Below are positions 21,231 through 40,232 of a stretch of 64,000 nt of DNA, piece after piece. The stretch lies in assembly GCA_019359095.1 (NCBI GenBank), contig JAHHHZ010000024.1, positions 124,001 through 188,000 of the forward strand, in the 5' to 3' direction. The position numbers were made by a program, and so were the translations under genes. Positions within the stretch are counted from its first letter, which is position 1; every line of letters begins with the position of its first letter. The stretch is from Pleurocapsa minor HA4230-MV1. Its GTDB lineage: Bacteria > Cyanobacteriota > Cyanobacteriia > Cyanobacteriales > Xenococcaceae. Below the pieces are notes generated by a model. The model made no database searches, had not been told where the DNA came from, and saw only the letters and a list, made by a program, of their open reading frames with translations.

Positions 21231-24125
21231 ATGAGATTTAAAAAGCTAAATTTAGAACGAATAACCATTGATAGAAAATTGCTTAATCTTAATAACCGAC
21301 ACTTTTTTCTACTGGATGGGCTGGTTTTTTGTCTAACACCTATGATGGCGATGGTTTTACGTCTCGATCACCTAGATCTTTTACAGAAATACTATCAAGG
21401 CTTGTTCGTTGCAACCATCATCTTTTCTATAGTTAAGTCAATCACGTTTATCATCGGCGGATTTTATAAGCGCTATTGGAAATATGCCAGTATTGATGAG
21501 TTAATTGAGATTGCTGCTTTAACCACAACCGCTGTGGTGGTCGAGATTATTTTATTGGGTATTTTGCAATACGTAATTGGGAATGATACTAACCATTATT
21601 TAGTGCCTCGTTCTTTACCCTTACTTGATGGTATTCTCACTTTTATTTTAATCGGCGGAATTCGCTTCAGCGTCAGAGCCGCAGAACGTAAAAATCAGCA
21701 ACGTAAAAACTTTTATAAACGCGATCGTGTCTTAATTGTCGGAGCAGGAGATGCAGGAGTCTCAATTCTGCAAGAAATGCGCCGTAATCTAAAGCTAGGA
21801 CTAAATCCTGTTGCATTTGTCGATGATGATCCTAAAAAGCTAGGATTAAATATCCAGGGATTACCTGTAGTGGGTAACCGTTACCGTATTCCAGAAATTA
21901 TTTCCGCGCAAAATATTCGCCAGGTAGTTATTGCTATGCCTACGACTGCGGGCAAAACTCTTCGCGAGATCGTAGATGTGTGTCAGGCGATGGGTATATC
22001 CGTCAATACCCTCCCTTCAGCCAATGAAATACTCGACCAAGGTAATCAAGTAACTATTCTTAGGGAAGTTAAAATTGAAGACCTCTTACGACGAGAACCG
22101 ATTCAAACCGATGCTCAGGCAGTTTCTCAACTTTTAACAGGAAAAACCGTACTGATAACTGGTGCTGGTGGATCGATTGGTAGTGAATTATGTCGTCAAA
22201 TCTTTCGCTGTCGTCCCGCTAAAATAATCTTATTAGGACACGGTGAGAACTCTGTGTTTAACATCCAAGAAGAACTACAGCAGGTACTGCAAATTCTCCA
22301 GCAGGAAAACTCCGATCAACAGCTTACTCAGCTTATTCCCTATATTGCTGATTTAAGAATTAAACCTAGGTTGGAAGATGCGTTTAGAGTTCATCAACCC
22401 GATATCGTATTTCATGCCGCAGCTCACAAACACGTGCCTCTAATGGAGTTAAATCCTCCAGAGGCAATCACTAATAATGTCTTAGGAACTAAAAACTTAT
22501 TAGATCTAGCAATCACTTATGATGTCGGCAATTTTGTCATGATCTCAACCGACAAGGCAGTTAAGCCGACCAACGTTATGGGAGCGAGTAAGCGCACAGC
22601 AGAAATGCTGGTACTAAAAGCAGCTAGAACTAGTGGAAGACCTTATGCGGTAGTTCGTTTTGGTAATGTTTTGGGTAGCCGTGGTAGCGTAGTGCCAACC
22701 TTCAAAAGACAGATTGCTAAAGGTGGGCCAGTTACCATCACTCACCCTGAAATTACTCGATACTTTATGACTATTCCTGAAGCTGTTCAGTTGGTTCTCC
22801 AAGCCTCTGTTTTAAGCAGCCAAAACAGCCAAGGTCAAATCTTCATGCTCAATATGGGTCAACCAATTAAAATTGTCGATCTGGCTAAAGATTTAATTAA
22901 GTTATCAGGCTATGAGGTTGGTCAGGATATTGATATTGTGTTTACTGGATTAAGACCAGGAGAAAAGCTATATGAAGAACTTTTAGTAGAAGGAGAAGAG
23001 TATGAATCGACTGCCCACGAAAAAGTATTAGTAGTCAAAAACGCTAGTCGCATCATCCCGCCCAATTTAGACACAACCATTAATGTTTTGTGTCAAGCAG
23101 CAAAGCGCAATGATATTAATCTAATTATCTTTCTACTCGATCGTCTCGTATTAGGCTATACCAGCAAATATCAACAAATAGATGTGGAACAAGCTCAAAA
23201 TAGTCTCGAACAAATTATTAGCGAGACTCATGAGCTTAATTCAGTTACCGTCGGTCTACAACCAGAATTTATGCCTCGTCTTAGTCTACCTAGTTTTAAC
23301 TATGTAACCCGTCTTACTCCTATTGAGCTACAACGTGGACTTAAACAAGCCTTAGAGAATGAAGAGTTTAGCCTTTACTACCAACCAGTAATGAGCTTGA
23401 TTACGGGAGAAATTTGCGAGCTTGAAGCTTTGTTACGCTGGCATCATCCCTATTTAGGGTTAATTTCTCCTCAAAAATTTATGGCGACGGCAGAAGAATC
23501 GGGGTTAATTGTTCCTTTGCAGAGATGGATCATTGAAGCTGTATGCGTCCAACTAAAACGTTGGCAGCAAGACCCTAATTTCAATAGTCAGATTGGGGTA
23601 AGCATTAATATCCCCAGTCTCCAGCTATTTCAACCAAGTTTAGTCAAACATCTCAAATTCAATTTAGAGCAATACCAAATTGACTCTCATTTGATTACTT
23701 GGGAAATATCCGAATATTTAATTGGTGAAAATCCGCAAGCAGCAAGGGTCATTTTGCCTCAATTAAAACAATTGGGAATTCAGTTGCAAATTGATAATTT
23801 TGGCAGGGTAGCTTCTATTTATGGTCATGTTAAACCCAACTTACTTTATCAAGAATTTGAACGAGTGAAAATTGATCGCCACTTAGTTAGCTTAATTGAA
23901 CGAGAGCAGCAACCTTGGGATGTGTTTAAAAAAATTGTTCTCGATCTCAAAAAACAGGGTTTTAATGTGACTATCACTGGTATTGAAAATCTATCTCAGT
24001 TGAATAAAGTCAAAGAAATTTCAGAAGATTATGGTCAAGGCAACCTTCTCTCTCGACCTTTGAATGTTGAAGAAGTAACTAAGCTCGTCAAGAGTAACCA
24101 GAGGATGTCTGAAAAGTTAAAATAA
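21231..24125 (+). CDS. Membrane nucleotide-sugar 4,6-dehydratase (CapD/WbpM/FlaA1 class) fused to a C-terminal EAL domain
   Basis: A 964-residue protein. Residues about 25-150 contain four to five membrane helices, and 160-290 a Rossmann-like sensor domain (VGAGDAGVSILQEM). Residues 300-620 form the SDR dehydratase with TGAGGSIGSE (about 308), STDKAVKPTNVMGASKR (about 439) in the catalytic region and LRPGEKLYEELL, as in UDP-GlcNAc 4,6-dehydratases that start sugar modification for capsule/O-antigen. WbpM homologues normally end near 620-640. Here residues about 698-955 are an EAL domain with E732 (EALLRW), SINIPS, WEISEYL, KIDRHLV and QGNLLSRPL, but DDFG reads DNFG (D855, N856) and AEGVET reads ITGIEN. 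Catalysis is therefore doubtful and c-di-GMP binding is a reasonable inference. It is the first gene of the polysaccharide locus. Confidence 0.9.
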   Translation: MRFKKLNLERITIDRKLLNLNNRHFFLLDGLVFCLTPMMAMVLRLDHLDLLQKYYQGLFVATIIFSIVKSITFIIGGFYKRYWKYASIDELIEIAALTTTAVVVEIILLGILQYVIGNDTNHYLVPRSLPLLDGILTFILIGGIRFSVRAAERKNQQRKNFYKRDRVLIVGAGDAGVSILQEMRRNLKLGLNPVAFVDDDPKKLGLNIQGLPVVGNRYRIPEIISAQNIRQVVIAMPTTAGKTLREIVDVCQAMGISVNTLPSANEILDQGNQVTILREVKIEDLLRREPIQTDAQAVSQLLTGKTVLITGAGGSIGSELCRQIFRCRPAKIILLGHGENSVFNIQEELQQVLQILQQENSDQQLTQLIPYIADLRIKPRLEDAFRVHQPDIVFHAAAHKHVPLMELNPPEAITNNVLGTKNLLDLAITYDVGNFVMISTDKAVKPTNVMGASKRTAEMLVLKAARTSGRPYAVVRFGNVLGSRGSVVPTFKRQIAKGGPVTITHPEITRYFMTIPEAVQLVLQASVLSSQNSQGQIFMLNMGQPIKIVDLAKDLIKLSGYEVGQDIDIVFTGLRPGEKLYEELLVEGEEYESTAHEKVLVVKNASRIIPPNLDTTINVLCQAAKRNDINLIIFLLDRLVLGYTSKYQQIDVEQAQNSLEQIISETHELNSVTVGLQPEFMPRLSLPSFNYVTRLTPIELQRGLKQALENEEFSLYYQPVMSLITGEICELEALLRWHHPYLGLISPQKFMATAEESGLIVPLQRWIIEAVCVQLKRWQQDPNFNSQIGVSINIPSLQLFQPSLVKHLKFNLEQYQIDSHLITWEISEYLIGENPQAARVILPQLKQLGIQLQIDNFGRVASIYGHVKPNLLYQEFERVKIDRHLVSLIEREQQPWDVFKKIVLDLKKQGFNVTITGIENLSQLNKVKEISEDYGQGNLLSRPLNVEEVTKLVKSNQRMSEKLK

Positions 24126-24236: not shown

Positions 24237-25220
24237 ATGTTAAAGGCAAAACATGATTGGTTAAAACGCTTTCCTTATGCAAAAATATCTGCTTACATAG
24301 TAGATGATTTCATCAAAGGTCTTAAATTATCAGTAGGACAAATAAGCTCTGGTTCTGGATCAGTGCATTTGCGAACTCAATCGGAAGTAGAATCAGTTGC
24401 TTATATCGAAAGTATTTTAAAAGACTACAAAAAACTTGGTGGCATCGAGAAATTTTCTGGAAAAGTTGCCGAGTTAGGTCCAGGAGATAGTGCTGGGGTA
24501 GCGATGTTGCTTAGAGGAGAAGGTTGCACCCAAGTAGATTTAATCGATCGCTATTATAGCGATCGCAATTTACAACAGCAAAGTAAAATTTATCAACTTT
24601 TGGCAGATAAATATGATTTAAATCATTTCAAGACTACGGATATATGGGATGAAAAAGCAATTTCTGGGGTTAATTGGAAAATTGGCATAGCCGCAGAAAA
24701 TTACTTTAAACAGTGCGCTCAAACAGATGAAACAATGTACGATTACATAATTTCCTGTGCTGTGTTAGAGCATCTATACGATCCTTTAGATTGTATAGTT
24801 CAAATGGTGAAATGTCTTAAGCCTGGGGGACAGATGTTTCACTTCATTGATTTTCGCGATCATGGTATGTTCACTCCTGAAAATCCAGAGCTTTGTTATC
24901 TCCAAATTCCTTCTTTTGCTTATACTCTTGCTACTAAAAACAATGCCAGACCAAATCGAATTTTGACACATCGATATCGAGAGATTCTTGAAGCACTCAA
25001 GCAAAAAGATTTAATTGACTATTCGATTTTAGTACAGCGCCTAGTGGAAGTTGATGAGATTAATCCTCCTCAACAATATGCAGACATTAATCCAGATAAA
25101 TTAAAACAAGCGAATGATTTTGTCGATCAATATCGTTATAAATTTGCCTCAGAGTTTGCCAATGTAAACAGTAGTGATCTGGCAATTTCCAATATATTTC
25201 TCAAGGTAATTAAAAAATAG
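24237..25220 (+). CDS. Class I SAM-dependent methyltransferase
   Basis: A 327-residue cytosolic protein. SAM-binding motif I is AELGPGDSAGVAML with the acidic partner LIDRYY; later motifs are YDYIISCAVLEHLYDP and CLKPGGQMFHFIDF, typical of Methyltransf_11/23-type enzymes. Its place between the dehydratase-EAL gene and a DUF4091 gene suggests O- or N-methylation of a sugar in the exported polysaccharide. The acceptor is unknown. Confidence 0.82.
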   Translation: MLKAKHDWLKRFPYAKISAYIVDDFIKGLKLSVGQISSGSGSVHLRTQSEVESVAYIESILKDYKKLGGIEKFSGKVAELGPGDSAGVAMLLRGEGCTQVDLIDRYYSDRNLQQQSKIYQLLADKYDLNHFKTTDIWDEKAISGVNWKIGIAAENYFKQCAQTDETMYDYIISCAVLEHLYDPLDCIVQMVKCLKPGGQMFHFIDFRDHGMFTPENPELCYLQIPSFAYTLATKNNARPNRILTHRYREILEALKQKDLIDYSILVQRLVEVDEINPPQQYADINPDKLKQANDFVDQYRYKFASEFANVNSSDLAISNIFLKVIKK

Positions 25221-25492
25221 TTTTTTGAGCGAACTATAACTTGGCGATTTAAATTTAAAATACAATTGTATTGGCTTGACAGAGGAGTAGTGGAAAACAA
25301 TTGAGACGACAATTTTACCTGCAAAAGCGGGTAATTGTCTTGAAACAGCCGACCTGAAAAAGTAATTAATAGAATCTTTATGTTGTAGTAGCAGAAATTG
25401 TTTTGCTATCTATTGTTTTAGATCTTGCCTAGATTGAAAACAACAGGTTTAATTTTTTTCTCAATTTTTACTAAATCGAGTGAGGTACTTCA

Positions 25493-27154
25493 TTGCTAAA
25501 AATTATTGTATTAGTATTATTTGCTCTGCTAACTGTATTGTTTACTAATAAGACAACTCAGAGTAATAGTAATCTAGAGAGTAGCTTTCAAGTTTTCATC
25601 AAACCATCTTTAGAGCGAATTAGTCAAAAGATTGATAATCAACAGTTTAACCTTAATCTTTTTAACCAAAACAATAGAGATAATAATTCTACAGAAAATA
25701 ATCTGCAATTATACGCAGCTAAAGGTGAGTATGAATCATTACAAATAGTAATCCAGTCCCCTAAAGGGAGAAATTTGCAAGGTGTTAATGTAGTTGTTGC
25801 CGATTTACAAAATAATAATCAAGATCTTATTTCTAGCCAAAATATTACTTTGTATCGTGAACATTATGTATACGTTGATACACCTAGTCCGAATAACTTG
25901 AGGGGTAATCCTACTTTAGGTCAGGGTTGGTATCCTGATGGTTTAATCCCCTTTGTCAATCCCAATACAGGTCTGGATTTAGAAGGAGCTAAGTTAGATG
26001 CTGCTCCCTTTAATGTGTTAGAAAACGAAAATCAATCTATTTGGTTAGATATTTATGTACCTAGAGATACAAAGCCTGGAGAATATCAAGGTTCATACAC
26101 TGTAACAACTGACCACCAAGGAGAGAAAAGAGGGAAAATTAACCTAACTGTCTGGGATTTTGAGTTACCTCTCAAACCGACGATGCATTCCCATTTTATT
26201 CCTTGGCAAGAGCGAGGAGAAAATTTAACCGAGGAATTGCTCAAACACAAAGTTGTTACAGGACTGCACGTTAGACCTGAGCAACAACAAGAGTTAATTA
26301 ATCAATGGGGATTAAACTCTGTTCGCTTACCTTTTTGGAGCGGGGCAAATTATACTAACTGTCAAATGAGTCCTGCTCCTAGTGTCATAGAAATTAAACA
26401 AGCCGCAGATGTATATGATGATAGTTTATTAAAATATATTTATTCTGCTGATGAGATTGATGAATGCAAAAACCTAATCTCACCTCTTAAGCAGTGGGCG
26501 GATAATATTCATGAAGCTGGGATTAAACATCTGGTCGTCATGAAACCTCGACCTGAACTATATGAAGATGTAGATATATGGGTTATACAACCCAATATGT
26601 ACGAGACTGGGGACGCAGAAATTACTGAAGCGATGAAACAAGGAGATCAAGTTTGGTTTTATTCTGGATACCATACAGATTATTCTCCTCAATGGACAAT
26701 CGATGCATTGCCAATTAATTTTCGTATTCCTCAAGGGTTCATAGCTCCCAATTTGGGCTTAACAGGGATTTTATACTTTAGAATTGATGCCTGGGGTCAT
26801 GATCCTAATAAAATTACTGCAAATCCTAGTGTTCCTTGGTATAGACTTCCAGTTTATCAATATAGTAATGAGCGTAGTTTTCCTGGAGATGGCGCGCTAA
26901 TTTATCCTGGCGAAGAAGTTGGACTGAAAGAGGTTGTTCCTTCTTTACGATTAAAAAGAATTAGGGACGGTATGGAAGATTATGAATATATAGCTATTCT
27001 CAAGAACTTCGGTGAAGAGGCATGGGCGTTAAAAACAATTCAACCTGTAGCAAGCAATTGGCATAATTGGACTAAAGAGCCTCAAGTACTGGAAGAAACC
27101 CGAGTAAAATTAGGTAATCGAATTCAGGAATTAATGCACAATTATCATAAATAG
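25493..27154 (+). CDS. Exported DUF4091 domain protein, glycoside hydrolase-like (copy 1)
   Basis: A 553-residue protein starting at TTG 25493, with GAGGT about nine bases upstream. Residues 1-18 are a hydrophobic signal/anchor, followed by a polar, Asn-rich linker. The rest matches the DUF4091 architecture: a beta-sandwich-like N part (AAKGEYESLQIVIQ, YREHYVYVD) and a barrel-like part with PFWSGANYTNCQMSPAPS, SADEIDECKNL, LVVMKPRPELYE, VWFYSGYHTDYSP and the terminal LRLKRIRDGMEDYEY. DUF4091 proteins are related to glycoside hydrolases, but activity is not established for most. A paralogue lies at 34170, suggesting two related extracytoplasmic steps such as trimming of the locus's glycan. Confidence 0.78.
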   Translation: MLKIIVLVLFALLTVLFTNKTTQSNSNLESSFQVFIKPSLERISQKIDNQQFNLNLFNQNNRDNNSTENNLQLYAAKGEYESLQIVIQSPKGRNLQGVNVVVADLQNNNQDLISSQNITLYREHYVYVDTPSPNNLRGNPTLGQGWYPDGLIPFVNPNTGLDLEGAKLDAAPFNVLENENQSIWLDIYVPRDTKPGEYQGSYTVTTDHQGEKRGKINLTVWDFELPLKPTMHSHFIPWQERGENLTEELLKHKVVTGLHVRPEQQQELINQWGLNSVRLPFWSGANYTNCQMSPAPSVIEIKQAADVYDDSLLKYIYSADEIDECKNLISPLKQWADNIHEAGIKHLVVMKPRPELYEDVDIWVIQPNMYETGDAEITEAMKQGDQVWFYSGYHTDYSPQWTIDALPINFRIPQGFIAPNLGLTGILYFRIDAWGHDPNKITANPSVPWYRLPVYQYSNERSFPGDGALIYPGEEVGLKEVVPSLRLKRIRDGMEDYEYIAILKNFGEEAWALKTIQPVASNWHNWTKEPQVLEETRVKLGNRIQELMHNYHK

Positions 27155-27643
27155 TTTTCAAAATAACGGAGCAAAATTATAAATTTTCACTATATTTTTG
27201 CGAAAACTTTATCAAAATATTATTAGAAAAACAATAAAATGACTGTATACTACCTACAGATAGAATCAAGTTAACAAATAATAAAATTATTGAGTTTGTC
27301 CGCAAATATAATGATTAACTCTGATTAGCTTTTATCTAATATTAATAAAAATCTAAATTACCAATCAATAACTCTTGTTGAACATGAGCTATTTTCAACT
27401 AAAAAATATTTCTCAAATTGAACATTCTCGTCATTGATCGCGACGCGACGTAAGGAGCTAGTCCTCTAGGACTGTTAATTTTTGCGTTAATGTCCTTTGC
27501 AGATTGATTGCTTACTGCCATCAACCTAAGAAATCTAGCCTTTATCTTGATTGGTTTTTTACCTCAATCTGCTTAACCCGAACTCAGGTTAATATAATAT
27601 AATCTGACTTAATATTTAGTAAACCGAGCTATCAATAAGAAAA
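27155..27643. other. Intergenic spacer with a fragment of a palindromic repeat
   Basis: AT-rich and without genes. At about 27438-27476 there is a GC-richer patch (GCGACGCGACGTAAGGAGC followed by AGTCCTCTAGGACT) that resembles the CTTTAGGAC repeat module found elsewhere in the window. A TATAATATAAT stretch lies about 45 bp before the next gene. Confidence 0.5.
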
Positions 27644-28498
27644 GTGATTAAGAAATTAAAGAAAAGTGATCATGGAACTCCAGAACAAATTGTTGAACAT
27701 TACCAATTAGAGAAAAAATTGGCAGATAAATTACGCAATAGTAGTAGAGAAGAGCGAGCAGAGTTATATACAGAGGTTTATGATGAATTATTTACTAATA
27801 TCCCCTATCATTCTCAGCTAACTCGCAAAGCTGATGATAAATCTCGCCAAATATCAGTTTATAAAAAACTACAGTTACTTAAACATTACCTTAAACCTGA
27901 TTCTACCTTCCTAGAAGTTGGGCCCGGTGACTGTAGTTTATCGTTAGCTGTTTGCCAACAAGTTAAGCAAGTCTATGCGGTAGATGTTTCTTCGGAAGTC
28001 ACCGAAAATAACCATCATCCAGAAAACTTCAAGTTAATTATTTCTGATGGTGTAAGCATTCCTGTTGCAACCAATAGTGTAACCATTGCCTACAGCGATC
28101 AATTAATGGAACATTTGCATCCTGATGATGCTTTTTTACAGCTCCAAAACATTTATCAATCATTAGCTGAATCGGGAATTTATATTTGTATCACTCCTAA
28201 TCGACTAAGTGGTCCCCATGATGTCTCTAAATATTTTGATGAAACTGCCACGTGCTTTCACCTTAAAGAGTATACTGTGACAGAGTTAATTAATTTATTT
28301 AGTCAAGTGGGATTTATTAATATTAAAGTTAGTTTTGGTTTTCGTGGAGTTTATTTACAACCACCTTTGTTTATCTATCAGTGGACAGAAAATTTTTTAA
28401 ATGCTGTACCGTTTGTTATTAGAAATAAACTTACTTCTAATATTTTAGTAAACAATTTTTTGGGCATTACAATTATTGCCAAAAAGAAGAATAAGTAG
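27644..28498 (+). CDS. Class I SAM-dependent methyltransferase
   Basis: A 284-residue protein starting at GTG 27644. Motif I FLEVGPGDCSLSLAV, acidic loop VYAVDVS, and YSDQLMEHLHPDDAFLQLQ with GIYICITPNRLSGPHDVS define a Methyltransf_11/25-type fold. A C-terminal hydrophobic stretch (LFIYQWTENFLNAVPFVI) could contact the membrane. Located within the polysaccharide locus, it probably methylates a glycan intermediate; this is inference from context. Confidence 0.8.
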   Translation: MIKKLKKSDHGTPEQIVEHYQLEKKLADKLRNSSREERAELYTEVYDELFTNIPYHSQLTRKADDKSRQISVYKKLQLLKHYLKPDSTFLEVGPGDCSLSLAVCQQVKQVYAVDVSSEVTENNHHPENFKLIISDGVSIPVATNSVTIAYSDQLMEHLHPDDAFLQLQNIYQSLAESGIYICITPNRLSGPHDVSKYFDETATCFHLKEYTVTELINLFSQVGFINIKVSFGFRGVYLQPPLFIYQWTENFLNAVPFVIRNKLTSNILVNNFLGITIIAKKKNK

Positions 28499-29164
28499 AT
28501 AGGCGTAATTAATTATAAATGGAGCAAAGCAGGGGAGCAGGGGGAGAAATAGAACGTTCTTATTTTATATTTAATTCTACCCACCTACTTAGTTGAAAAA
28601 TTAACTATAAAGATTAGACTATAGCAGTCCTATTTGATTTATGAAACTACATTGATTGGTTTTTAGGTAGTCCTAAAAGATAAGCTTCGCAAATGAGACC
28701 GAAGGGAATCCTTTAGGGCTTTAGCATAAGCTTCGTGACCAGAGGTAATCCTTTAGGGCAAATAGTTAGTAGGTAATAGAAATTTCTCATTTTATTTAGG
28801 ATTGCTATATGGCTTCAGAAAATTTGATATCTTAGCTGCTAATTAAGGATTTAGGTCATATAAAATTGTTCAAGCCTTTATATAAAAAGAAATTTTCAGC
28901 AATTAGCATAAAACGTTATTCTCAATAAACATAGCTGAAATGCTTTTTTTCGTAATTATTGCTAATACGGTTAGCAGTTTGCCATGCTCAGTAATTCTGA
29001 AAGCTTTTCTTTAACTTGAGTTGAGGTACCTGAATCCTTACACTGCTAAAGCTGGTGGTCATCCTCGAATTGTGGACACGAGAGGAGTAATGAATAGTAT
29101 TTGTTAGTAGCTGAATGTACTTAGTTTTTGTTGCCATAGAGCTTTACGAACAGACTGGATAGTA
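28499..29164. other. Long spacer carrying several repeat fragments
   Basis: 666 bp with no gene. It holds an AGGGGAGCAGGGGGAG purine tract (about 28525-28545), the right end of the 124-bp element family (28567-28591, compare 54775-54798), and two tandem, diverged copies of the CTTCGC...ATCCTTTAGGGC module (28673-28761). A GAGGAGTAATGAATAG near 29083 looks like a start signal but opens no useful frame. Confidence 0.6.
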
Positions 29165-30541
29165 ATGATGAAAATTAACGGAAAAATAACAAAATATCTA
29201 GATATATGGCGTGATTTTGCCAAAGGTTCAATTAATCGTCAAATTTTTACAGCAACTATTATCATCGGTTTAGTAACTGGGTTAAGCAAGTTTGCTTCTG
29301 TCGGCAAGGAATTAGTGGTTGCCTGGCGATTCGGGACGGGAGACCAGATTGACTCTTTTGTTATGGCATTAGTAATCCCTGCCTTTGTTACGACTGTAGT
29401 AGCGAATTCCTTAAGTACTGCTTTTATTCCCACCTATATCAAGGTCAAAGAGGAGAGTCCAAAGGCAGCACAACAATTATTCTCTGGGATTATGACAAGG
29501 GCAATCGGGTTACTTGTCGTAATAACGATTGTGATCGCAGTTACTGCTCCCCTCTATTTACCCCTAATGGCATCGGGATTTTCTGCCGCCAAGCTAGACT
29601 TAACGAATCGTTTACTTTGGTCGATTTCCCCTTCAATACTACTCTATGGAGTTATCAATATTTTGGGTGGAGTAATGAACGCTGGAGAAAAATTTGCTCT
29701 TGTTGCTTTTTCTCCAGTGCTTACCCCTTTAGCTACGGTTATTATGTTACTCGCTTTTCCTGATTGGGGAATTTACGCGTTGGCGGGGGGACTAATTTGT
29801 GGCTCTTTGAGCGAGATGATTGTTTTAGGTATAGCCTTGCTTAGACAGGGAATTGATTTACGACCTCAGTGGTTGAAAGATAATGCCAATTTAGATCTAG
29901 TGTTCAAAGAATATTTTCCTGTAATAGTTGGCTCTTTCTTAATGTGTAGTACCAATTTAGTAGATCAATCTATGGCGGGAATGTTATCGCCTGGAAGTGT
30001 TGCAGCATTGGGCTATGCCAATCGTGTCATTGCTCTTCCCTTGAGTTTAGTTACCATAGCCTTGGGAACCGCGGTAGTTCCTTACTTTTCTCAAACTATT
30101 GCTCAAAAAGATTGGCGCAAGATAAATCATACTTTTAAATATTATTTAAGACTGATTTTCATTACTATGATTCCTTTGACACTATTATTTATTTTAGCTT
30201 CCAAACTAATTGTTCAAATTCTTTTTGAGCGAGGATCTTTTACTACTGAAAATACACAGTTAGTATCTCAAATTCAAATATTTTATGCTCTACAAATTCC
30301 TTTTTATATTGCATCAATTTTTGTAGTTAGACTAATTAATTCGCTAGGAATAAATTATTATTTAGCCTGGGGATCAGCAATTAACTTAATAGCAAATATA
30401 ATCGGAAATTATGTGTTTTCTTTTTGGCTTGGAGTTGCTGGACTAGCCTTGTCTACTAGTTTAGTACATCTTATTTCGTTTGTTTTTTTGTATACCTTAA
30501 CCAACAAACACTTGCAAAAAATATTATTAGAAAGTAATTAA
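29165..30541 (+). CDS. MurJ/MviN-family lipid-linked oligosaccharide flippase
   Basis: A 458-residue polytopic protein of the MOP superfamily with about 13-14 hydrophobic segments. N-terminal TATIIIGLVTGLSKFASVGKELVVAWRFGTGDQIDSF, ANSLSTAFIPTY and NRVIALPLSLVTIALGTAVVPYFS are MurJ/MviN signatures. The true MurJ flips lipid II; a copy inside a polysaccharide locus between glycosyltransferases probably serves as the Wzx-like flippase of this pathway. No separate Wzx is seen. ATG 29165 and 29168 are both possible. Translation runs into the next GT with a 12-bp gap. Confidence 0.88.
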   Translation: MMKINGKITKYLDIWRDFAKGSINRQIFTATIIIGLVTGLSKFASVGKELVVAWRFGTGDQIDSFVMALVIPAFVTTVVANSLSTAFIPTYIKVKEESPKAAQQLFSGIMTRAIGLLVVITIVIAVTAPLYLPLMASGFSAAKLDLTNRLLWSISPSILLYGVINILGGVMNAGEKFALVAFSPVLTPLATVIMLLAFPDWGIYALAGGLICGSLSEMIVLGIALLRQGIDLRPQWLKDNANLDLVFKEYFPVIVGSFLMCSTNLVDQSMAGMLSPGSVAALGYANRVIALPLSLVTIALGTAVVPYFSQTIAQKDWRKINHTFKYYLRLIFITMIPLTLLFILASKLIVQILFERGSFTTENTQLVSQIQIFYALQIPFYIASIFVVRLINSLGINYYLAWGSAINLIANIIGNYVFSFWLGVAGLALSTSLVHLISFVFLYTLTNKHLQKILLESN

Positions 30542-30553
30542 ATAAATTTAGCC

Positions 30554-31660
30554 ATGAAAATAGCTTTAGTAATTTCAAGCCTTAGCTGTGGAGGAGCCGA
30601 AAGAGTTTTAGTCTCGATGGCACAAGGATTTATCCAGCGGGGGCATAATGTAAAGGTTGTCACCTTGTCTGAGAAAAACAGTGACTTTTATGAATTACCT
30701 AGTGAATGCTCTCGAATTGCTCTCGGGGTTTTAAGTTCATCGACAGGACTAATAACGGCGCTCAAAAGCAATACTGGACGTATAACTGCAACCAGAGAAG
30801 CTCTTCAGTCTAGTACTCCTGATGTTGTCATTTCTTTCCTCCGTATTACCAACGTCACTACTATACTTGCTCTACTCGGGACAAAGTATCCTCTAATCAT
30901 AACGGAACATAATGATGCTAGAGTTTTTTCTTATGGACTTTTATGGGAAACTTTAAGGCGCTTGACATATCCCTTTTGTTCTTGTGTTGTTAGCGTTAGT
31001 CAAGGGGTTGATTTGGGTTTTGCCTCACTGCCAAAGAGTAAAAGAGCCGTAATTTATAACCCGATTATGGTTAAAGACAATGAGCAGGCGGATCAACTAC
31101 CTCCACAAGTTGATCCGCAAAAAAACTGGTTAGTTAGTATGGGTCGATTAACAGAACAAAAAGGATTTGATCTGTTACTACAAGCTTTTGCGAAAATTGC
31201 CTCTAAATCTCCAAACTGGCAATTGCTGATTTTGGGCAAGGGAGAATTACGCGAACAGTTGTCACAAATGAAAGATGATTTAGGCTTGTCCAGCCAAGTT
31301 GTTTTCACGGGAGCTTTGAGTAATCCTTTTGCAGTACTAAAAAGAGCCAAAATATTTGTCATGGCTTCAAGAAATGAAGGGTTTCCCATGGCTCATGGAG
31401 AAGCTTTAGCCTGCGGTTTGCCCGTGGTTTGCACAGATTGTCCCAGTGGTCCTAGTGAAATGGTTCGTCAGGATATTGATGGCATTTTGGTTCCTAATCA
31501 AGACGTAGCTGCTCTGGCAGCAGCGATGGAAAATTTAATGTCTGATGAAGCCCTAAGAGAAAAACTTGCTCATAACGCTCCTCAAGTATTGGAAAGATTT
31601 GGTTTGGATGCCATAGTGACAGAATGGGAAACTTTAATGAATAAATTATTGGAGGCATAA
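30554..31660 (+). CDS. Glycosyltransferase family 4
   Basis: A 368-residue GT-B enzyme. N-terminal LVISSLSCGGAERVLVSMAQGF, and C-terminal SMGRLTEQKGFDLLLQAF and FVMASRNEGFPMAHGEALACGLPVVCTDCPSGPSEMV, contain the EX7E nucleotide-sugar-binding motif (E...E) of GT4. Twelve bases separate it from the flippase gene and five from the next GT, so this is a tight operon. The sugar donor is unknown. Confidence 0.9.
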   Translation: MKIALVISSLSCGGAERVLVSMAQGFIQRGHNVKVVTLSEKNSDFYELPSECSRIALGVLSSSTGLITALKSNTGRITATREALQSSTPDVVISFLRITNVTTILALLGTKYPLIITEHNDARVFSYGLLWETLRRLTYPFCSCVVSVSQGVDLGFASLPKSKRAVIYNPIMVKDNEQADQLPPQVDPQKNWLVSMGRLTEQKGFDLLLQAFAKIASKSPNWQLLILGKGELREQLSQMKDDLGLSSQVVFTGALSNPFAVLKRAKIFVMASRNEGFPMAHGEALACGLPVVCTDCPSGPSEMVRQDIDGILVPNQDVAALAAAMENLMSDEALREKLAHNAPQVLERFGLDAIVTEWETLMNKLLEA

Positions 31661-31665
31661 ATTTA

Positions 31666-32769
31666 ATGACTGATAGGAAACGCATTACTTTTTTTCTTGA
31701 CGCCCTCCATGGTGGTGGTGCCGAAAAGGCAGTAGTTAATTTACTTAAAGGCTTAGCTCAACGAGATGAATTTGACCTAGATTTAGTTCTCGCTACTAAA
31801 GAGGGCCCTTATTTAGATTTAGTCCCCCCAGAAGTAAGAATTGTTGACCTGAATAGTGGTCGAGCAATCAAAGCCACCTTACCTTTGATCAGCTACCTGA
31901 AGGAAAATCATCCTTGGGCGGTGATTGGTAATATGGGTCATGTTAATGTCGTAGCTTCAATCGCTAAAGAATTATCAGGAATCAAGACTAAGCTAGTTTT
32001 GGTCGAACAGAATACATTATCTACCTCTAAAAGTAAGCTCAAGCGGGCGAAACTAGTTGAACTATTGATGAAATGGTTATATCCTCGTGCTGATGCAGTG
32101 GCAGGAGTTTCCGTAGGTGTTGCTCGTGATTTAGAACAACAGTTAAAACTAAAGAAAGAAACAGTTAGGGTACTTAATAATCCTGTAGTTAATGAAGATT
32201 TAATTAGTAAAAGCCAAGCTAGTTTAGAACACTCTTGGTTTACTGTCGATGCGCCACCAGTATTTTTAGCGGTGGGCAGATTAAATTCACAGAAAGATTT
32301 TCCTAATTTGTTGAATGCTTTTGCTCAGGTAAGAAAACAGCAAGTAGCCCGTTTAATTATTTTAGGAGAAGGGGAAGAGCGTCAAGCCTTAGAAGCAATT
32401 ATTGGTAATTTGGGTATTGGTGAGGATGTTTTATTACCTGGTTTTGTTAAAAATCCCTATGTCTATATGAAACACGCCAGTTGCTTTGTTCTCTCCTCTC
32501 AAGCAGAGGGATTACCTACGGTACTGATTGAAGCGATGGCTTGTGGTTGTCCCGTTGTGTCTACAGACTGTCCTAGTGGACCAGAAGAAATTTTAGATCG
32601 CGGAACTTATGGCTTGTTGGTTCCGAGCAAAAATTCTGAAGCTTTAGGGGAAGCAATGGGCAAAACTCTCAACAATCCTCTTAAACAGGAAATTTTAATC
32701 CAGCGTGCCAATGAATATTCTACTGAAAGAGTCGTAGCAGCATATTTATCTTTGCTCAACGAACTATAA
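31666..32769 (+). CDS. Glycosyltransferase family 4
   Basis: A 367-residue GT-B enzyme similar to its upstream neighbour: FFLDALHGGGAEKAVVNLLKGL, FLAVGRLNSQKDFPNLLNAFAQV, and SSQAEGLPTVLIEAMACGCPVVSTDCPSGPEEIL with both glutamates of the EX7E motif. The start lies five bases after the previous stop (GGAGGCATAAATTTAATG supplies a good GGAGG). The two probably arose by duplication and add successive sugars. Confidence 0.9.
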   Translation: MTDRKRITFFLDALHGGGAEKAVVNLLKGLAQRDEFDLDLVLATKEGPYLDLVPPEVRIVDLNSGRAIKATLPLISYLKENHPWAVIGNMGHVNVVASIAKELSGIKTKLVLVEQNTLSTSKSKLKRAKLVELLMKWLYPRADAVAGVSVGVARDLEQQLKLKKETVRVLNNPVVNEDLISKSQASLEHSWFTVDAPPVFLAVGRLNSQKDFPNLLNAFAQVRKQQVARLIILGEGEERQALEAIIGNLGIGEDVLLPGFVKNPYVYMKHASCFVLSSQAEGLPTVLIEAMACGCPVVSTDCPSGPEEILDRGTYGLLVPSKNSEALGEAMGKTLNNPLKQEILIQRANEYSTERVVAAYLSLLNEL

Positions 32770-32843
32770 AGGGCAAATTACAATCTTGATCGAGACAAGG
32801 TTCAAATATCAATCACTTTTTTAGCTTTTATACTAAAGAATCA

Positions 32844-34097
32844 ATGATTAGTTCAACCGAATCAAAAAATCAGACAAAAGCTACCTTCATAACTTATTAT
32901 CAAGGATTTTTGGCGATCGCATCTACCCTAGTATTTTTTACTAGATCAGATGTATATTTTAATAATCATCATGGGTTGCCCATTCCTTTAGTTTGGATGT
33001 TAGGGTTTTTGGTGGCATCTGTCCCCCTCTTTATCTCTTTGCTAAGTAGACTTCAAGATTTGTCCAGACCTCTGGTAATTTGGTCTGGCTTCTATATTGC
33101 AGCATCATTTATTTCAATTTTAATACAACCAGTGCTTCCCAAGCAGCAGTATTTAGAAGATCAATATCGCACAATTATCTTTTTGATTATGATGCTAGGG
33201 ATTTTTGCTTATCATCCTCTAGTAACCAAATGGGTTAAGCAGACAATTCTATTTGTAACTTTGTGTAATATATTATTATATATTTATGAATTTTTTTATC
33301 CCTTGGCTTTCTATGTAGAACAACGGGCTCCAGGAAGATCATCTGGAGTTTATGAAGATTCTAATGTCGCTGGGATTGCACTGGTTGTGGGAATGATTTC
33401 CACTATTGACATAATTAAACCTAGATACCGTTTATTTTATGCTCTATTAATATTTGTTGGCATTACACCAACTTTTTCTCGAGGTTCAATTGCTGGGTGG
33501 TTTGTAGTCATGGGTTTTTTAATTATCAAGAAAATCATTCCTCGCCACCAAATGCCTCTTTTAATAGTATTTTTTATGGTCACAATTTCGATTTTATCGA
33601 CTCAACTTGGTCAACTTAAATATTTAAAAGGTTCTGATGGTAAAACTTTATTTAACAAAGATTCCCTGGCAAGGGTGGAATTTTTGCTCAATCCTTTAGA
33701 ACAAAAAGATGGCTCTAAAGCCTCTCGTGAAGATCATGTCAAGGTTGCTTGGGAAAAATTCTCGAGGCATCCTTTTATTGGTAATGGCTTGGGTTCTGGA
33801 GAAAATACTGCCACCCTCTCCACCACAGGAGTGGCTCAAAGAAGTCACAATACCTATTTAGATCAGATGGTAGAATTTGGCTTTTTAGGCGCTTTTTTTT
33901 TCCCTTCCTTACTCTTAGCATCTGTTTGGCAAGCAGAAGGAGAATTCAAAAAACAAGGGGCAGCTTTTGTGGTTTTTATTATGTTTCAGGGATTTTTTAG
34001 CCATACCCTGATGAATGAATTCTGCTCATTAATTTTTTACGCTATTATGGCAAACCTAGCTAAACACAGTAGTGAAACCAGTATTCTTAATAGTTAA
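32844..34097 (+). CDS. O-antigen ligase/polymerase family membrane protein (Wzy/WaaL-like)
   Basis: A 417-residue protein with about ten to twelve membrane helices and a large extracytoplasmic loop containing REDHVKVAWEKFSRHPFIGNGLGS and RSHNTYLDQMVEFGFLGA. The HPFIGxGxGS...HNTYL signature defines the O-antigen ligase (PF04932) family. Family members either polymerise repeat units (Wzy) or attach glycans to a lipid or protein (WaaL, PglL); sequence alone does not separate these. It fits as the polymerase of this locus. Confidence 0.85.
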   Translation: MISSTESKNQTKATFITYYQGFLAIASTLVFFTRSDVYFNNHHGLPIPLVWMLGFLVASVPLFISLLSRLQDLSRPLVIWSGFYIAASFISILIQPVLPKQQYLEDQYRTIIFLIMMLGIFAYHPLVTKWVKQTILFVTLCNILLYIYEFFYPLAFYVEQRAPGRSSGVYEDSNVAGIALVVGMISTIDIIKPRYRLFYALLIFVGITPTFSRGSIAGWFVVMGFLIIKKIIPRHQMPLLIVFFMVTISILSTQLGQLKYLKGSDGKTLFNKDSLARVEFLLNPLEQKDGSKASREDHVKVAWEKFSRHPFIGNGLGSGENTATLSTTGVAQRSHNTYLDQMVEFGFLGAFFFPSLLLASVWQAEGEFKKQGAAFVVFIMFQGFFSHTLMNEFCSLIFYAIMANLAKHSSETSILNS

Positions 34098-34169
34098 AGA
34101 ATTTGAACTATTAGATCAACCTTGCTTTTGTGACTCAAAGTCTTAAATTGGCACAAACTTAACTGTAGT

Positions 34170-35777
34170 ATGTTTAACTTTTCCACTAACATCGCGAAGA
34201 CCGTCATCTTAATATTTTTAACCATGATTGCTGTGTTGAGTAATTCGGCAATTAGCGAGAGTGAGATTAAAACCGATCCTTTGTTTTGGACTGCTTCAGC
34301 TATGGAAGCTGTTGAACTCAATCAACCTAGTCCAATCTTGACAGATGATGATTTGGCGAGGTTAAGAAAAATAAACTTAAAAGCAGCCAAAGGAGAATAC
34401 GAAGCGTTTCAAATTGTCGTTCAAGCTCCACCAGGAAATCTGAGTAACGTTAATCTTACTGTGTCTGACTTAAAAAACTCTCAAGGAGAATTAATTAGCA
34501 AAGATAACATTACTCTCTATCGAGAACACTATATAAAACTCGATCGCCCTAGTTATTCAGGATGGCCAGCTAATCCCACTCGTGGTCAGGGATGGTATGC
34601 AGATGCTCTAATTCCCTTTGTCGATCCCAATACAGGTAAAGATATTCAAAATGCGCCATTGGATGCCGTGCCTTTTAATTTAGCAGCGGGAACAAATCAA
34701 CCGATTTGGGTTGATATTTTTGTACCACCATCTACTGCTCCTGGAGAATATCAAGGAAAATTTACGATTGAAAGCGATCGCGGTATCTCCGAAGGTCAGA
34801 TTGATTTAACAGTCTGGAATTTTACTCTACCCGTACAGCCATCAATAGATTCTTACTTTAATATTTGGGAAAACAGGGGAATTGAAGCACAAACATTGCT
34901 ACTTGAACATAGATTAATGCCTAGTCAAAGAATTAAGTATCCAGATCAGCAAGATGCTTTTAAGAGATTGGGTGTCAAATCGGTGAATTTGCCTTTTTGG
35001 AGTGGAGCTAACTATCACACCTGCCAAATGGATCCTGCTCCCTCAGTAAATAAACTCAAAGAAGCTTCAGCTCAATATCCATCGAACTTATTGAAATACG
35101 TATTTTCGGTAGATGAAATCGATCTATGTAAAAATTTGGAAACCCCGTTAAAACAATGGGCAAAAAATATTCATCAAGCAGGATTGAAACATCTTGCCGT
35201 CATGAAACCCAGAGCAGATTTATACGATCAGATAGATATTTGGGTTGTAAATCCTTTAATGCATGAGGAAGCAAAATTTGAAATTCAGGAAGTAAAAAAG
35301 CAAGGAGATGAGATTTGGTTTTATACAGGATATAGTACAGATTATTCTCCTCTATGGCATTTGGATTCCCCACCGATTAATTTCCGTATTCCTCAAGGAT
35401 GGATTGCCCAAAGTTTGAATTTAAAAGGTGTTCTTCTTGCACGAGTAGATACTTGGACAGAAAATCCTTGGCAAGAAGTACCGATTTATGTACAGGGGGA
35501 TATAGATTATCCTGGCATAGAGATGTTGTTCTATCCAGGGGACAAAGTAGGTTTAAATCAGGTTGTTCCTTCCATTCGGCTTAAACGGATTAGAGAAGGA
35601 ATGGAAGATTATGAATATACCGAAATCTTAAAAGAGCTTGGATATCAAGATTGGGCTATGAAAATTGTCAGAAATGTGGGAGCAAATTGGACAAATTGGA
35701 CAAAAGACACTAATAGTTTAGATTTAGCTAGACAAAAATTAGGCACAAAAATTCATCAATTATCTCAGTCAAGTTAA
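34170..35777 (+). CDS. Exported DUF4091 domain protein, glycoside hydrolase-like (copy 2)
   Basis: A 535-residue paralogue of the protein at 25493. The N-terminal hydrophobic segment (about 9-27) is a signal peptide. Shared blocks include AAKGEYEAFQIVVQ, YREHYIKLD, NPTRGQGWYADALIPFVDPNTG, PFWSGANYHTCQMDPAPS, SVDEIDLCKNLETPLKQWAKNIHQAG, FYTGYSTDYSPLWH and RLKRIREGMEDYEY. The conserved glutamate in (A/V)DEID is a candidate catalytic acid, by inference only. This copy lacks the Asn-rich linker of copy 1. Lying just after the ligase/polymerase gene, it may act on the polymer outside the cytoplasm. Confidence 0.8.
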   Translation: MFNFSTNIAKTVILIFLTMIAVLSNSAISESEIKTDPLFWTASAMEAVELNQPSPILTDDDLARLRKINLKAAKGEYEAFQIVVQAPPGNLSNVNLTVSDLKNSQGELISKDNITLYREHYIKLDRPSYSGWPANPTRGQGWYADALIPFVDPNTGKDIQNAPLDAVPFNLAAGTNQPIWVDIFVPPSTAPGEYQGKFTIESDRGISEGQIDLTVWNFTLPVQPSIDSYFNIWENRGIEAQTLLLEHRLMPSQRIKYPDQQDAFKRLGVKSVNLPFWSGANYHTCQMDPAPSVNKLKEASAQYPSNLLKYVFSVDEIDLCKNLETPLKQWAKNIHQAGLKHLAVMKPRADLYDQIDIWVVNPLMHEEAKFEIQEVKKQGDEIWFYTGYSTDYSPLWHLDSPPINFRIPQGWIAQSLNLKGVLLARVDTWTENPWQEVPIYVQGDIDYPGIEMLFYPGDKVGLNQVVPSIRLKRIREGMEDYEYTEILKELGYQDWAMKIVRNVGANWTNWTKDTNSLDLARQKLGTKIHQLSQSS

Positions 35778-35896
35778 TCTCAATAATGAGGATAAAAAAT
35801 TTCTATGTGAGCATTAAAATATTAAAATTGGGATTAAAAAATAAACTTTTTTTATTGTTTAATTTGTTTAATTAATTTTTCAGGATGATTAAATAG

Positions 35897-37096
35897 ATGA
35901 AGTTAGATTCAAATCACACAGCGATTGACAATGCTGTAGAAGACAAAATTAGTAAAATTAAAATATTATTTATTATTACTGGGTTGGCATCTGGGGGAGC
36001 AGAGGTGATGCTTCTTAGTCTATTATCCAGTATCAATCGCGATCGCTTTGAACCAACTGTGATTTCCTTGATGGATAAAGGAATATATGGAGAAAAAATT
36101 GAGCAGCTAGAAATTCCCGTGTACTGTGTCAAAATGTTAGAGGGAAAACCGACCATCAACTCAGCTAGACGCATGACTGAATTAATTAAACAAGTTAAGC
36201 CAGACATGATTCAGGGTTGGATGTATCATGCTAACTTAGCCGCGCAATTTTTCAATTTTTTTATTAATCGGCAGACTCCTGTATTATGGAGTATTCATCA
36301 CTCTCTCCATGCTATATCTTCGGAAAAACCTCTCACTCAAGGAATAATTCGCTTTGGTAGTTGGTCTTCTAAGTATGTGGATCGAGTTGCTTTTGTTTCG
36401 GAAAAAAGCCAAGCTCAACATCAAAAAATTGGCTATTCTAAAGCTAATAGCTGCGTTATTCCTAACGGTTTTGATACCTCTAAATTTAAGCCTTCAGCTG
36501 AGATTAGGCAGAAATTTCGTCAAGAATTAAATATTGCCGAGCGTATTTTTCTCATTGGCTCTGTTGCTCGATATCATGCGATGAAAGATCATGCTAACTT
36601 TTTGCGGGCAGCTCAGCTGCTTTTGATCGAACATCCTGAAACTAAATTCGTGATGGTCGGTACAAACGTTGATGAGCAAAACCAAGCCTTAACTAGCTTG
36701 ATTGATACATTGGGCATTGGTGATAGTGTATATCTTTTAGGGCAACGTAGTGATATTCCGCAAATCACACCTGCTTTGGACATATTAACTTCTTCCTCAG
36801 CTTATGGAGAAGCTTTTCCTTTGGTACTTGGTGAGGCTATGTCCTGTGAAGTACCCTGTGTAGTGACAGACATTGGTGATTCTGCTTGGATTGTCGGCGA
36901 CACGGGCAAAGTTGTACCGCCAAAAAATCCCACTGCACTTGCTCAAGCTTGGCAAGAAGTAATTACGATGGATACATCTGCCAAAGCAGATTTAGGTAAA
37001 ATTGCTCGCCGTAGAATTATCGATAAGTTCTCTTTAACTTCAATAGTCGCTCAATATGAAGATCTTTATCAAAGCATAATTGAGCGGCAAAATTAG
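35897..37096 (+). CDS. Glycosyltransferase family 4
   Basis: A 399-residue GT-B enzyme. LFIITGLASGGAEVMLLSLL, GWMYHANLAAQFF, VIPNGFDTSKFKPS, GSVARYHAMKDHANFLRAAQLL and SSAYGEAFPLVLGEAMSCEVPCVVTDIGDSAWIVG carry the GT4 donor-binding features. It is more distant from the two tandem GT4s than they are from each other. It is convergent with galE. Confidence 0.9.
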   Translation: MKLDSNHTAIDNAVEDKISKIKILFIITGLASGGAEVMLLSLLSSINRDRFEPTVISLMDKGIYGEKIEQLEIPVYCVKMLEGKPTINSARRMTELIKQVKPDMIQGWMYHANLAAQFFNFFINRQTPVLWSIHHSLHAISSEKPLTQGIIRFGSWSSKYVDRVAFVSEKSQAQHQKIGYSKANSCVIPNGFDTSKFKPSAEIRQKFRQELNIAERIFLIGSVARYHAMKDHANFLRAAQLLLIEHPETKFVMVGTNVDEQNQALTSLIDTLGIGDSVYLLGQRSDIPQITPALDILTSSSAYGEAFPLVLGEAMSCEVPCVVTDIGDSAWIVGDTGKVVPPKNPTALAQAWQEVITMDTSAKADLGKIARRRIIDKFSLTSIVAQYEDLYQSIIERQN

Positions 37097-37180
37097 CTCT
37101 CAAGACAGCTGGTATAGGTTATCCTAAACACAACGCAACAATCAAGCAATTGAGAATTTTACTCTGTGATGAATTTCTGT

Positions 37181-38164
37181 TTATTGATGCCGCTTTTGGT
37201 GCCATTGCCAAGCATGGGAGATAATATCATCTAAATTGGAGTAGGCAGGCTGCCAGCCTAAAATTTTATTAGCTTTTGCCCCACTTCCTACTAGTGAGGG
37301 AGGATCTCCTGGACGGCGATCGCTTAATTCAACTTTTATTTCTTTACTTGTAATTTTACGCGCTGTTTCGATTACTTCCTTAACGGAAAAACCACTGCCA
37401 TTACCCAGATTGAAAACGTCTGTTGCACCGTCATCGATCAAATATTCTAAAGCGAGAATATGAGCCTGGGCAATGTCCAAAACATGAATATAGTCTCGGA
37501 TACAACTACCATCGGGGGTGTCATAGTCTGTACCAAAGATGGAAACTGATTCGCGATGACCTAAAGCAGTCTGTAAAACTAAGGGAATTAGATGAGTTTC
37601 AGGATGATGATCTTCCCCCAAATTACCTTCAGGATCTGCTCCCGCAGCGTTAAAATAACGTAGACAGACGGAACGAAAATCATAAGCTTGATTAAAGTCT
37701 TGGAGGATTCTTTCCACCATCAACTTAGTTGCACCATAAGGATTAATGGGATTTTGCGACTGGTCTTCTGTAATGGGTACGGAATCTGGTACACCATAGG
37801 TGGCACAGGTGGAGGAGAAGACAAACTGATGAATATTTGCTTCTAACATGGCTTCTAAAAGAGTTAGCGTACCAACCACGTTATTGTTGTAATATTTTGC
37901 TGGCTGGGTAACGGATTCTCCAACATATGCATAGGCTGCAAAGTGCATCACAGCATCAATTTGGTGGGTGGCGAAGATTTCTCGTAGTAAAGAGCGATCG
38001 CAAGTACTGCCGACAATCAACTTAACTTTTAAAACCGTCTCTACTAGGTCTTGATGACCATAGACAAGGTTATCCAGTACAATTACTTCGTAGCCCGCTT
38101 TTTGTAGTGTTAGTACGGAATGAGAGCCGATGTATCCTGCTCCTCCTGTGACGAGAATAGCCAT
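37181..38164 (-). CDS. galE: UDP-glucose 4-epimerase
   Basis: A 327-residue SDR enzyme interconverting UDP-glucose and UDP-galactose. TGGAGYIGSH NAD motif, SSTCATYG (Ser), NPYGATK (YxxxK), RYFNAAGADPEGNLGED and TPDGSCIRDYIHVLDIAQAH are diagnostic of GalE. It is on the opposite strand to the rest of the locus but in its middle, so it probably supplies UDP-galactose for the polysaccharide. The ATG is at 38164. Confidence 0.95.
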   Translation of the reverse strand: MAILVTGGAGYIGSHSVLTLQKAGYEVIVLDNLVYGHQDLVETVLKVKLIVGSTCDRSLLREIFATHQIDAVMHFAAYAYVGESVTQPAKYYNNNVVGTLTLLEAMLEANIHQFVFSSTCATYGVPDSVPITEDQSQNPINPYGATKLMVERILQDFNQAYDFRSVCLRYFNAAGADPEGNLGEDHHPETHLIPLVLQTALGHRESVSIFGTDYDTPDGSCIRDYIHVLDIAQAHILALEYLIDDGATDVFNLGNGSGFSVKEVIETARKITSKEIKVELSDRRPGDPPSLVGSGAKANKILGWQPAYSNLDDIISHAWQWHQKRHQ

Positions 38165-38348
38165 TATAAATGAGATTCTAAAATTTTTTAGATTACAAAG
38201 CTAAATATATCAGTAAATTAAACTTTTAAAGATAACTTAGAATACCAGATTGTTTTTTTCGACGTTTTACTTAAAAATAGCAATAATCTTGTAACATCCA
38301 AGAAAATTTGCTTAAGCCATACTTACATATAATTTATATTTATTAATA

Positions 38349-39503: not shown

Positions 39504-39522
39504 CTACCAATTAATTTTTAAG

Positions 39523-40137
39523 ATGGCTAAATTAATCAAAACTATTGCCGATCGCTTAGTGGCAGCCTTGGCTTTATCGATTCTTGCTCCTGTAATTTTA
39601 CTGGTGGCGATCGCCGTGAGAATCCAGATGGGTACGCCAATTCTCTTTACCCAAGCTCGCCCAGGTAAAAATGGTCGCGTGTTTCAATTTTGTAAATTCC
39701 GCACCATGACTGATGCTCGAAATAGTGAGGGAGAATTGTTAAGCGATGACGAGCGCCTGACTAAAATTGGCAAACTATTGCGTAAGACTAGTTTAGATGA
39801 GCTACCACAACTCTGGCATGTCCTTAAGGGTGAAATGAGCATTGTTGGCCCCCGCCCACTGTTAGTACGCTATTTAAAGCTATACAACGAAGAACAAGCC
39901 CGTCGTCATGATGTATTGCCAGGAATTACGGGCTGGGCGCAGGTTAATGGTCGGCGTAACTTAGATGGAGACTTTATTAAAAAGTTTGAACTAGATGTCT
40001 GGTATGTCGATAATTGGAGTTTGGGGTTGGATCTGAAAATTATTTGGCTGACGATATTAGCAGTAGTGGCGCAAAAAGACATCGATCAAGAAGGTTATAC
40101 CACTGGTGGAGGAGAGTTTTTAGGCAACGATCGCTGA
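39523..40137 (+). CDS. Monotopic phosphoglycosyl transferase (bacterial sugar transferase), copy 1
   Basis: A 204-residue short-form enzyme with one N-terminal re-entrant hydrophobic segment (about 9-33), then [32 protein letters not shown] (the DE catalytic pair in LDELPQ) and [13 protein letters not shown]. Such enzymes put a sugar-1-phosphate on undecaprenyl phosphate to start glycan assembly. It lacks the extra N-terminal helices of WcaJ/WbaP, so it is PglC-like in size. The next gene is a close paralogue. Confidence 0.92.
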
Positions 40138-40232
40138 ACTTGCTGAATAGTTTAAAAGTCACCATAATATCTAGATAAATATAGATAAATAGAAATTCTG
40201 CTCAAACTTTGCTTGAAAAATGAAATTTCCCG

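Follow-up and report, generated by a model that had tools for sequence, protein, structure and literature searches.

A cyanobacterial nucleotide-sugar dehydratase fused to a degenerate EAL domain, a putative c-di-GMP receptor

The window, a stretch of 64,000 nt from Pleurocapsa minor HA4230-MV1 (host order Cyanobacteriales, host family Xenococcaceae), encodes a single chain in which a nucleotide-sugar dehydratase is followed by an EAL domain. We read this protein, with a probability of about 0.6, as a WbpM/PglF-type dehydratase whose EAL domain, by origin a c-di-GMP phosphodiesterase, became a putative c-di-GMP receptor, because a retained ligand pocket, lost hydrolysis and an intact precursor-forming enzyme occur together in one chain.

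The fused gene and its distribution

The gene and its parts lie as follows:
21231..24125 (+): dehydratase-EAL fusion gene (P0001), 964 aa, a single open frame without internal stop
21300..21674 (+): four hydrophobic segments, residues 24-45, 56-79, 90-119 and 130-148, a probable membrane anchor (Kyte-Doolittle, window 19)
21510..22007 (+): CoA_binding_3, residues 94-259 (Pfam)
22149..23039 (+): Polysacc_synt_2 (PF02719) dehydratase domain, residues 307-603 (Pfam, 388 bits)
22548..22592 (+): TDK(x)nMx3K signature of WbpM/PglF type, T440, D441, K442, M450 and K454 (from the signature table in the available part of PMC8987622)
23040..23339 (+): C-terminal tail of the dehydratase and linker, residues 604-703 (between the Pfam domains; pair comparison)
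23340..24059 (+): EAL domain (PF00563), residues 704-943, catalytically degenerate (Pfam, 176.3 bits against a cut-off of 31.3)
23793..23798 (+): D855, kept (RocR D295), and N856, which replaces an aspartate (RocR D296) (alignment of EAL tails)
23976..23978 (+): T916, which replaces the AEG glutamate (RocR E352) (alignment of EAL tails)

The uninterrupted frame, with both Pfam domains matched, bears out the original prediction that a dehydratase and a recognizable C-terminal EAL domain share one chain. The two motif changes that it named, DDFG to DNFG (D855, N856) and AEGVET to ITGIEN (glutamate to T916), are both as claimed.

Judged from its sequence, the enzyme is a probable nucleotide-sugar 4,6-dehydratase of the WbpM/PglF type, with UDP-GlcNAc as putative substrate. 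The TDK(x)nMx3K active-site signature, which replaces Yx3K, is present in the fused protein and is listed for WbpM and PglF in the available sections of a dehydratase review (PMC8987622). Residues S439, T440, D441, K442, M450 and K454 are intact in 35/35 fused proteins. The same sections describe WbpM with an N-terminal membrane anchor (PMC8987622). In a test for such an anchor, the Kyte-Doolittle profile gave four hydropathy peaks above 1.6, and the dehydratase is probably membrane-anchored.

The window's genome contains 21 matches to PF02719, of which the fused protein scores 392 bits and the other 20 at most 69 bits. With one full-length high-scoring match, the fused protein is by this measure the sole dehydratase of its type there. 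The possibility that a separate plain copy renders the fusion redundant was rejected, since none was found among the 20 other matches of this genome. Across the host family, 14 of 27 genomes carry such a protein, and fused and plain copies occur together in none. No second protein at E ≤ 1e-120 was found in any of the 14; in G249, both matches belong to a single interrupted gene.

For the host order, 291 genomes were drawn evenly from a larger group and searched with the dehydratase part (E ≤ 1e-120). Matches were obtained in 73 of the 291 genomes and comprised 55 close orthologues (at least 54% identity) and 18 distant proteins (41-48% identity, frames of 636-730 aa). All 55 close loci were read for an EAL domain: 31, including that of the window, are one-frame fusions, two are interrupted (L041 and L119), one is split (L117), two hold a remnant, and 19 have none. 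In L117, a 655-aa dehydratase gene is followed directly by a 265-aa EAL gene. The two frames lie 13 bases apart (5975-5989) and the same acids are lost, which could mean that the gene is naturally split or that its frame is broken. In L097 and L098 (796 and 799 aa), a shortened, further decayed partial EAL domain follows the dehydratase.

A second sample covered 388 genomes of the class at E ≤ 1e-150 and gave matches in 36, of which 21 lie outside the host order. For these 21, 15 loci and G422 were inspected for a tail, and for the remaining five only the length of the open frame (506-721 aa) was used; five of the 21 are fused (L140, L147, L148, L149 and L150, the last being the same gene as in G422). 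Across both samples, eight family codes within the class contain the fusion. The plasmid that carries L150 (5962-8814; annotated as a polysaccharide biosynthesis protein) belongs to Pseudanabaena sp. ABRG5-3 and is 110.6 kb long; the gene is flanked there by a tyrosine autokinase gene on one side and polyketide/nonribosomal peptide genes on the other. The protein had matches at E ≤ 1e-30 in 493 plasmid records; among the matches listed (25 of 493), coverage of at least 80% in one place was seen in the Pseudanabaena plasmid only. A scan of genome contigs found one distant EAL domain as well as three relatives with the fusion.

The check proposed with the original prediction, namely the spread of chains combining PF02719 and EAL and their presence in related genomes, was thus run in the order and class samples and returned 31 of the 55 close orthologues and five proteins outside the order. 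Because the same uninterrupted frame recurs in other genomes, the fusion is no chance join. A sequencing error, assembly artefact or frameshift join was rejected, the frame being uninterrupted in 30 further genomes of the order and five outside it.

Residues lost and retained in the EAL domain

Residue counts refer to 38 complete EAL tails plus L150 (39 in total), with the remnants L097 and L098 left out; the tails are partly near-copies, and L087 and L088 are identical. The reference is a non-random set of 22 ordinary cyanobacterial EAL domains, made up of the eight best-scoring others of the window's genome and 14 of the best ordinary matches to the query elsewhere. Equivalences with RocR, FimX and LapD were assigned by motif.

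The second aspartate of DDFG (RocR D296) is missing in all 39 tails; among the 38 it is replaced by N (28), H (4), R (2), Q (2) or K (2). The AEG glutamate (RocR E352) is likewise missing in 39/39, with T in 29 of the 38, A in three, V in two, and S, I, M and L in one each. Both acids are intact in 22/22 ordinary EAL domains, versus 0/39 tails. Q718, E732, R736, N793, E825 and D855 (RocR Q161, E175, R179, N233, E265 and D295) are kept in 39/39 tails, as are E919, Q936 and P943. The ligand-pocket residues Q718, R736, E919 and Q936, with equivalences by motif, are thus retained in every tail, and the pocket is invariant across the eight family codes. K880 is retained in 35/38 tails, D882 in 34/38 and E828 in 36/38. 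Loop 6 is rebuilt, with T859 present in 0/38. The listed pocket residues are all intact in the 22 ordinary EAL domains. The window's genome encodes 12 EAL domains, among which that of the fusion scores lowest; both aspartates are present in 10 of the other 11, and an AEG-type glutamate in all 11.

The roles of these positions are known from characterized enzymes. In the available sections of PMC7911125, RocR Q161 and R179 are assigned to substrate binding and E175, N233, E265, D295, D296 and E352 to metal coordination; those of PMC9993111 name D295, N233, E265 and E175 as the Mg ligands of RocR. T916 occupies the position, matched by motif, of the first glutamate of ExxE in TBD1265 (E703), whose alanine mutant is inactive and which is called essential in the accessible text of PMC12943098. 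Given these roles of the lost and kept residues in RocR and TBD1265, hydrolysis appears very unlikely, with the ligand and first-metal sites remaining. Hydrolytic activity of the EAL domain has very probably been lost.

Modeled alone, the EAL domain reached a pLDDT of 86.2 (five sequences). The best PDB match of the model was 3n3t, the complex of a Thiobacillus denitrificans EAL domain with c-di-GMP, at TM 0.86. A full-length AlphaFold model (three sequences) had a pLDDT of 40.8, too poor to tell whether the domains touch.

With the acids gone in 39/39 tails and a confident model closest to a c-di-GMP complex, the original prediction of a domain that lost catalysis and kept its fold holds as very probable. 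Its further claim, that the domain follows the pattern of receptor-type EAL domains, stands in part. The loss of acids with a kept fold agrees with it; the type of decay does not. The EAL motif reads KVL in LapD and AFL in X. citri FimX, so that both lack its glutamate; in P. aeruginosa FimX it reads EVL, and four of ten catalytic residues remain (available sections of PMC3032553, PMC7288161 and PMC3527489). The tails, which retain the EAL glutamate in 39/39, do not show the decay of LapD or X. citri FimX.

Evolution, locus and signaling context

A tree of the 39 tails and 22 ordinary EAL domains places the tails on one side of a branch with support of 100/100, recovered in all of 200 bootstrap trees; some long branches in it were flagged by the program. 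A dehydratase tree was built from 69 rows by a quick method (LG+G4), leaving out L142, which duplicates L118, as well as the interrupted L041 and L119. This tree requires six changes between the presence and absence of the tail. In it, the plain proteins L099 and L100 adjoin the fused L058 and L060, with SH-aLRT values of 99 and 100. Since 19 of the 55 orthologues have no EAL domain and two plain proteins stand beside fused ones, the domain can be lost. Counts of changes alone cannot separate gain from loss; what favors loss is the existence of remnants and of a split gene, together with the single grouping of the EAL tails. One old fusion followed by several later losses would fit these sequences best.

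Selection was assessed in pairs of fused genes, and the dN/dS estimates rest on the pair with L039, dS being at or near saturation in the other four pairs. For the EAL domain, dN was 0.098 and dS 0.849 (dN/dS ~0.12); for the dehydratase, dN was 0.032 and dS 0.866 (dN/dS ~0.04). These low ratios indicate that both domains are under purifying selection. In four of the five pairs, the linker shows lower conservation than either domain; in the L039 pair it is intermediate.

Downstream of the fusion lie:
24237..40847 (+): polysaccharide locus with two methyltransferases, two GH123-like proteins, a MurJ/Wzx-type flippase, four GT4 transferases, a Wzy_C protein and two phosphoglycosyl transferases (gene calls and Pfam)
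37181-38164 (opposite strand): epimerase gene within the polysaccharide locus

This gene set marks a Wzx/Wzy-type polysaccharide locus, and the fusion heads it, as had been predicted. The two GH123-like proteins (25493-27154 and 34170-35777) have modest Pfam matches. Beyond the phosphoglycosyl transferases, a 612-aa frame (42286-44124) has no Pfam match.

A similar setting recurs at other fused loci. In 24 of 30, the first or second downstream gene on the same strand falls in one of four flippase/GT4/DUF4832 clusters, which are named from single annotated representatives (two flippases, one GT4 and one DUF4832 protein). The six fused loci without a polysaccharide gene at these positions are L055, L061, L087, L088, L091 and L093. 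Upstream of the fusion, a cluster with a Wzc-like representative is found in 8 of the 30. Plain loci have the same downstream clusters about as often as fused ones (15 of 20, one being the distant L120). The polysaccharide setting therefore belongs to the enzyme, fused or plain, and says nothing about the EAL domain.

All 36 genomes with an uninterrupted fusion that were searched encode at least seven GGDEF domains. We compared these 36 with 30 plain genomes (19/19 of the order and 11/16 outside it), leaving out genomes with interrupted, split or remnant copies. Six or fewer GGDEF domains occur in 0/36 fused and 8/30 plain genomes, and seven of these eight come from one family code. The idea that the fusion is tied to richer c-di-GMP signaling was unsupported (GGDEF counts, fused versus plain, p = 0.18).

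Two further proteins of the window's genome carry EAL domains of interest. At 942-2765 (+), 18 kb upstream of the fusion, a 607-aa protein has a response-regulator-like start and a GGDEF-like middle, both recognized by eye, and an intact EAL domain with DD and AEG kept. A second, different degenerate EAL domain is found in L151 (C30), an 868-aa frame with an FHA-like start, again by eye; here DD is changed to DG and the metal-binding asparagine to serine, and the AEG glutamate is kept.

Candidate function and comparison with known systems

Control of the dehydratase by c-di-GMP through the EAL domain, as the original prediction proposed, is the best reading that we infer from these sequences. 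The EAL domain would still bind c-di-GMP; because the four Mg ligands named for RocR are kept, a single metal ion would probably take part. The bound nucleotide would stay in place and change how the dehydratase is oriented or oligomerized. High c-di-GMP could then lead to more deoxy-amino sugar and hence to more initiation of polysaccharide synthesis. That the effect would be activation is an assumption, based on the general association between c-di-GMP and exopolysaccharide. Counted against a receptor are the missing EAL domain in 19 of the 55 orthologues, the losses of K880, D882 and E828, and the GGDEF comparison (p = 0.18). The wider proposal is about evenly balanced: a cyanobacterial receptor class, of an age that would explain its spread over eight family codes, may put a precursor-forming sugar dehydratase under direct c-di-GMP control, upstream of polymerization and export, the steps at which known receptors act.

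Degenerate EAL domains of the YdiV and CsrD kind serve as docking modules, and the tail might similarly be a protein-interaction module without nucleotide binding, for example one that docks to the polysaccharide complex or to a diguanylate cyclase. The rebuilt loop 6 (T859 in 0/38), the loss of K880 as well in three tails, and the mere remnant of the domain in L097 and L098 are consistent with such a module. A pure docking surface would not need Q718, E732, R736, N793, E825 and D855, which are invariant in 39/39, and we consider this explanation unlikely.

Another nucleotide, either pGpG or a nucleotide sugar, might instead occupy the EAL domain and exert product or feedback control; a degenerate FimX EAL domain was also crystallized with pGpG bound (available sections of PMC3527489). 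It is the c-di-GMP pocket whose residues are conserved, and GGDEF domains occur in all 36 fused genomes searched, which makes this option improbable.

We give still less credence to the EAL domain as a slow phosphodiesterase, a second enzyme in the chain. The EAL glutamate, the asparagine, the EIxE glutamate and the first aspartate are kept in 39/39 tails and the lysine in 35/38, as such an enzyme would require; the equivalent of TBD1265 E703, whose alanine mutant is inactive in the accessible part of PMC12943098, and the second aspartate are gone in 39/39.

An assembly artefact or a decaying passenger domain without function, to which the interrupted L041 and L119, the split L117, the two remnants and the 19 orthologues without EAL might point, is very unlikely: the relatives refute the artefact, 31 frames of the order sample are uninterrupted, the pocket is invariant over eight family codes, and dN/dS is low in the L039 pair, the sole pair with dS not near saturation.

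If the putative c-di-GMP receptor is real, the supply of a dedicated sugar, instead of polymerization, would be a new control point. The route from c-di-GMP to cyanobacterial slime and biofilm is known through few receptors, and the fusion is a candidate direct link in many species. It also suggests an evolutionary route from phosphodiesterase to putative receptor, in which the same two acids are gone in all 39 complete tails and the remaining pocket is kept. In the available sections of PMC5871770, all Thermosynechococcus EAL domains appear active by alignment, and the first cyanobacterial c-di-GMP receptor to be demonstrated is said to be the cellulose synthase Tll0007; CdgR is another described one (available sections of PMC13075795). 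Among the matches listed from the open-licence literature, cyanobacterial c-di-GMP papers included, the available portions held no description of a dehydratase-EAL architecture, and the word "allosteric" is absent from the available text of the dehydratase review (PMC8987622). What appears new here is a candidate receptor of the degenerate-EAL kind, with a different decay pattern and on a new partner.

The fused protein resembles several known systems in part. With the WbpM and PglF UDP-GlcNAc 4,6-dehydratases it shares N-terminal hydrophobic segments, Polysacc_synt_2 and the TDK(x)nMx3K signature. WbpM and PglF proteins normally stop after the dehydratase, as do the 19 plain orthologues of the host order, whereas the fused protein carries an EAL domain beyond it. 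The closest fold to that domain is the EAL phosphodiesterase of T. denitrificans (2r6o, 3n3t), which we take to be TBD1265 (TM 0.86, 30-31% identity); unlike the fusion EAL, it has both the DDFG and the AEG acids. The FimX and LapD receptors likewise combine an EAL fold with lost catalytic residues and a partly kept ligand pocket. The fusion differs in keeping the EAL glutamate (39/39) and losing the second aspartate, the AEG glutamate and loop 6, and its partner is a sugar enzyme rather than a signaling protein. In the proposed view, it would share with PelD, BcsA, Alg44 and BcsE the direct control of polysaccharide production by c-di-GMP, which these systems exert through a fused or partner receptor domain (available sections of PMC8461298). 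The receptors described there are PilZ or degenerate GGDEF folds that act on synthase complexes (PMC8461298); here, in contrast, the receptor would be an EAL domain, and it would act on an enzyme that makes the precursor.
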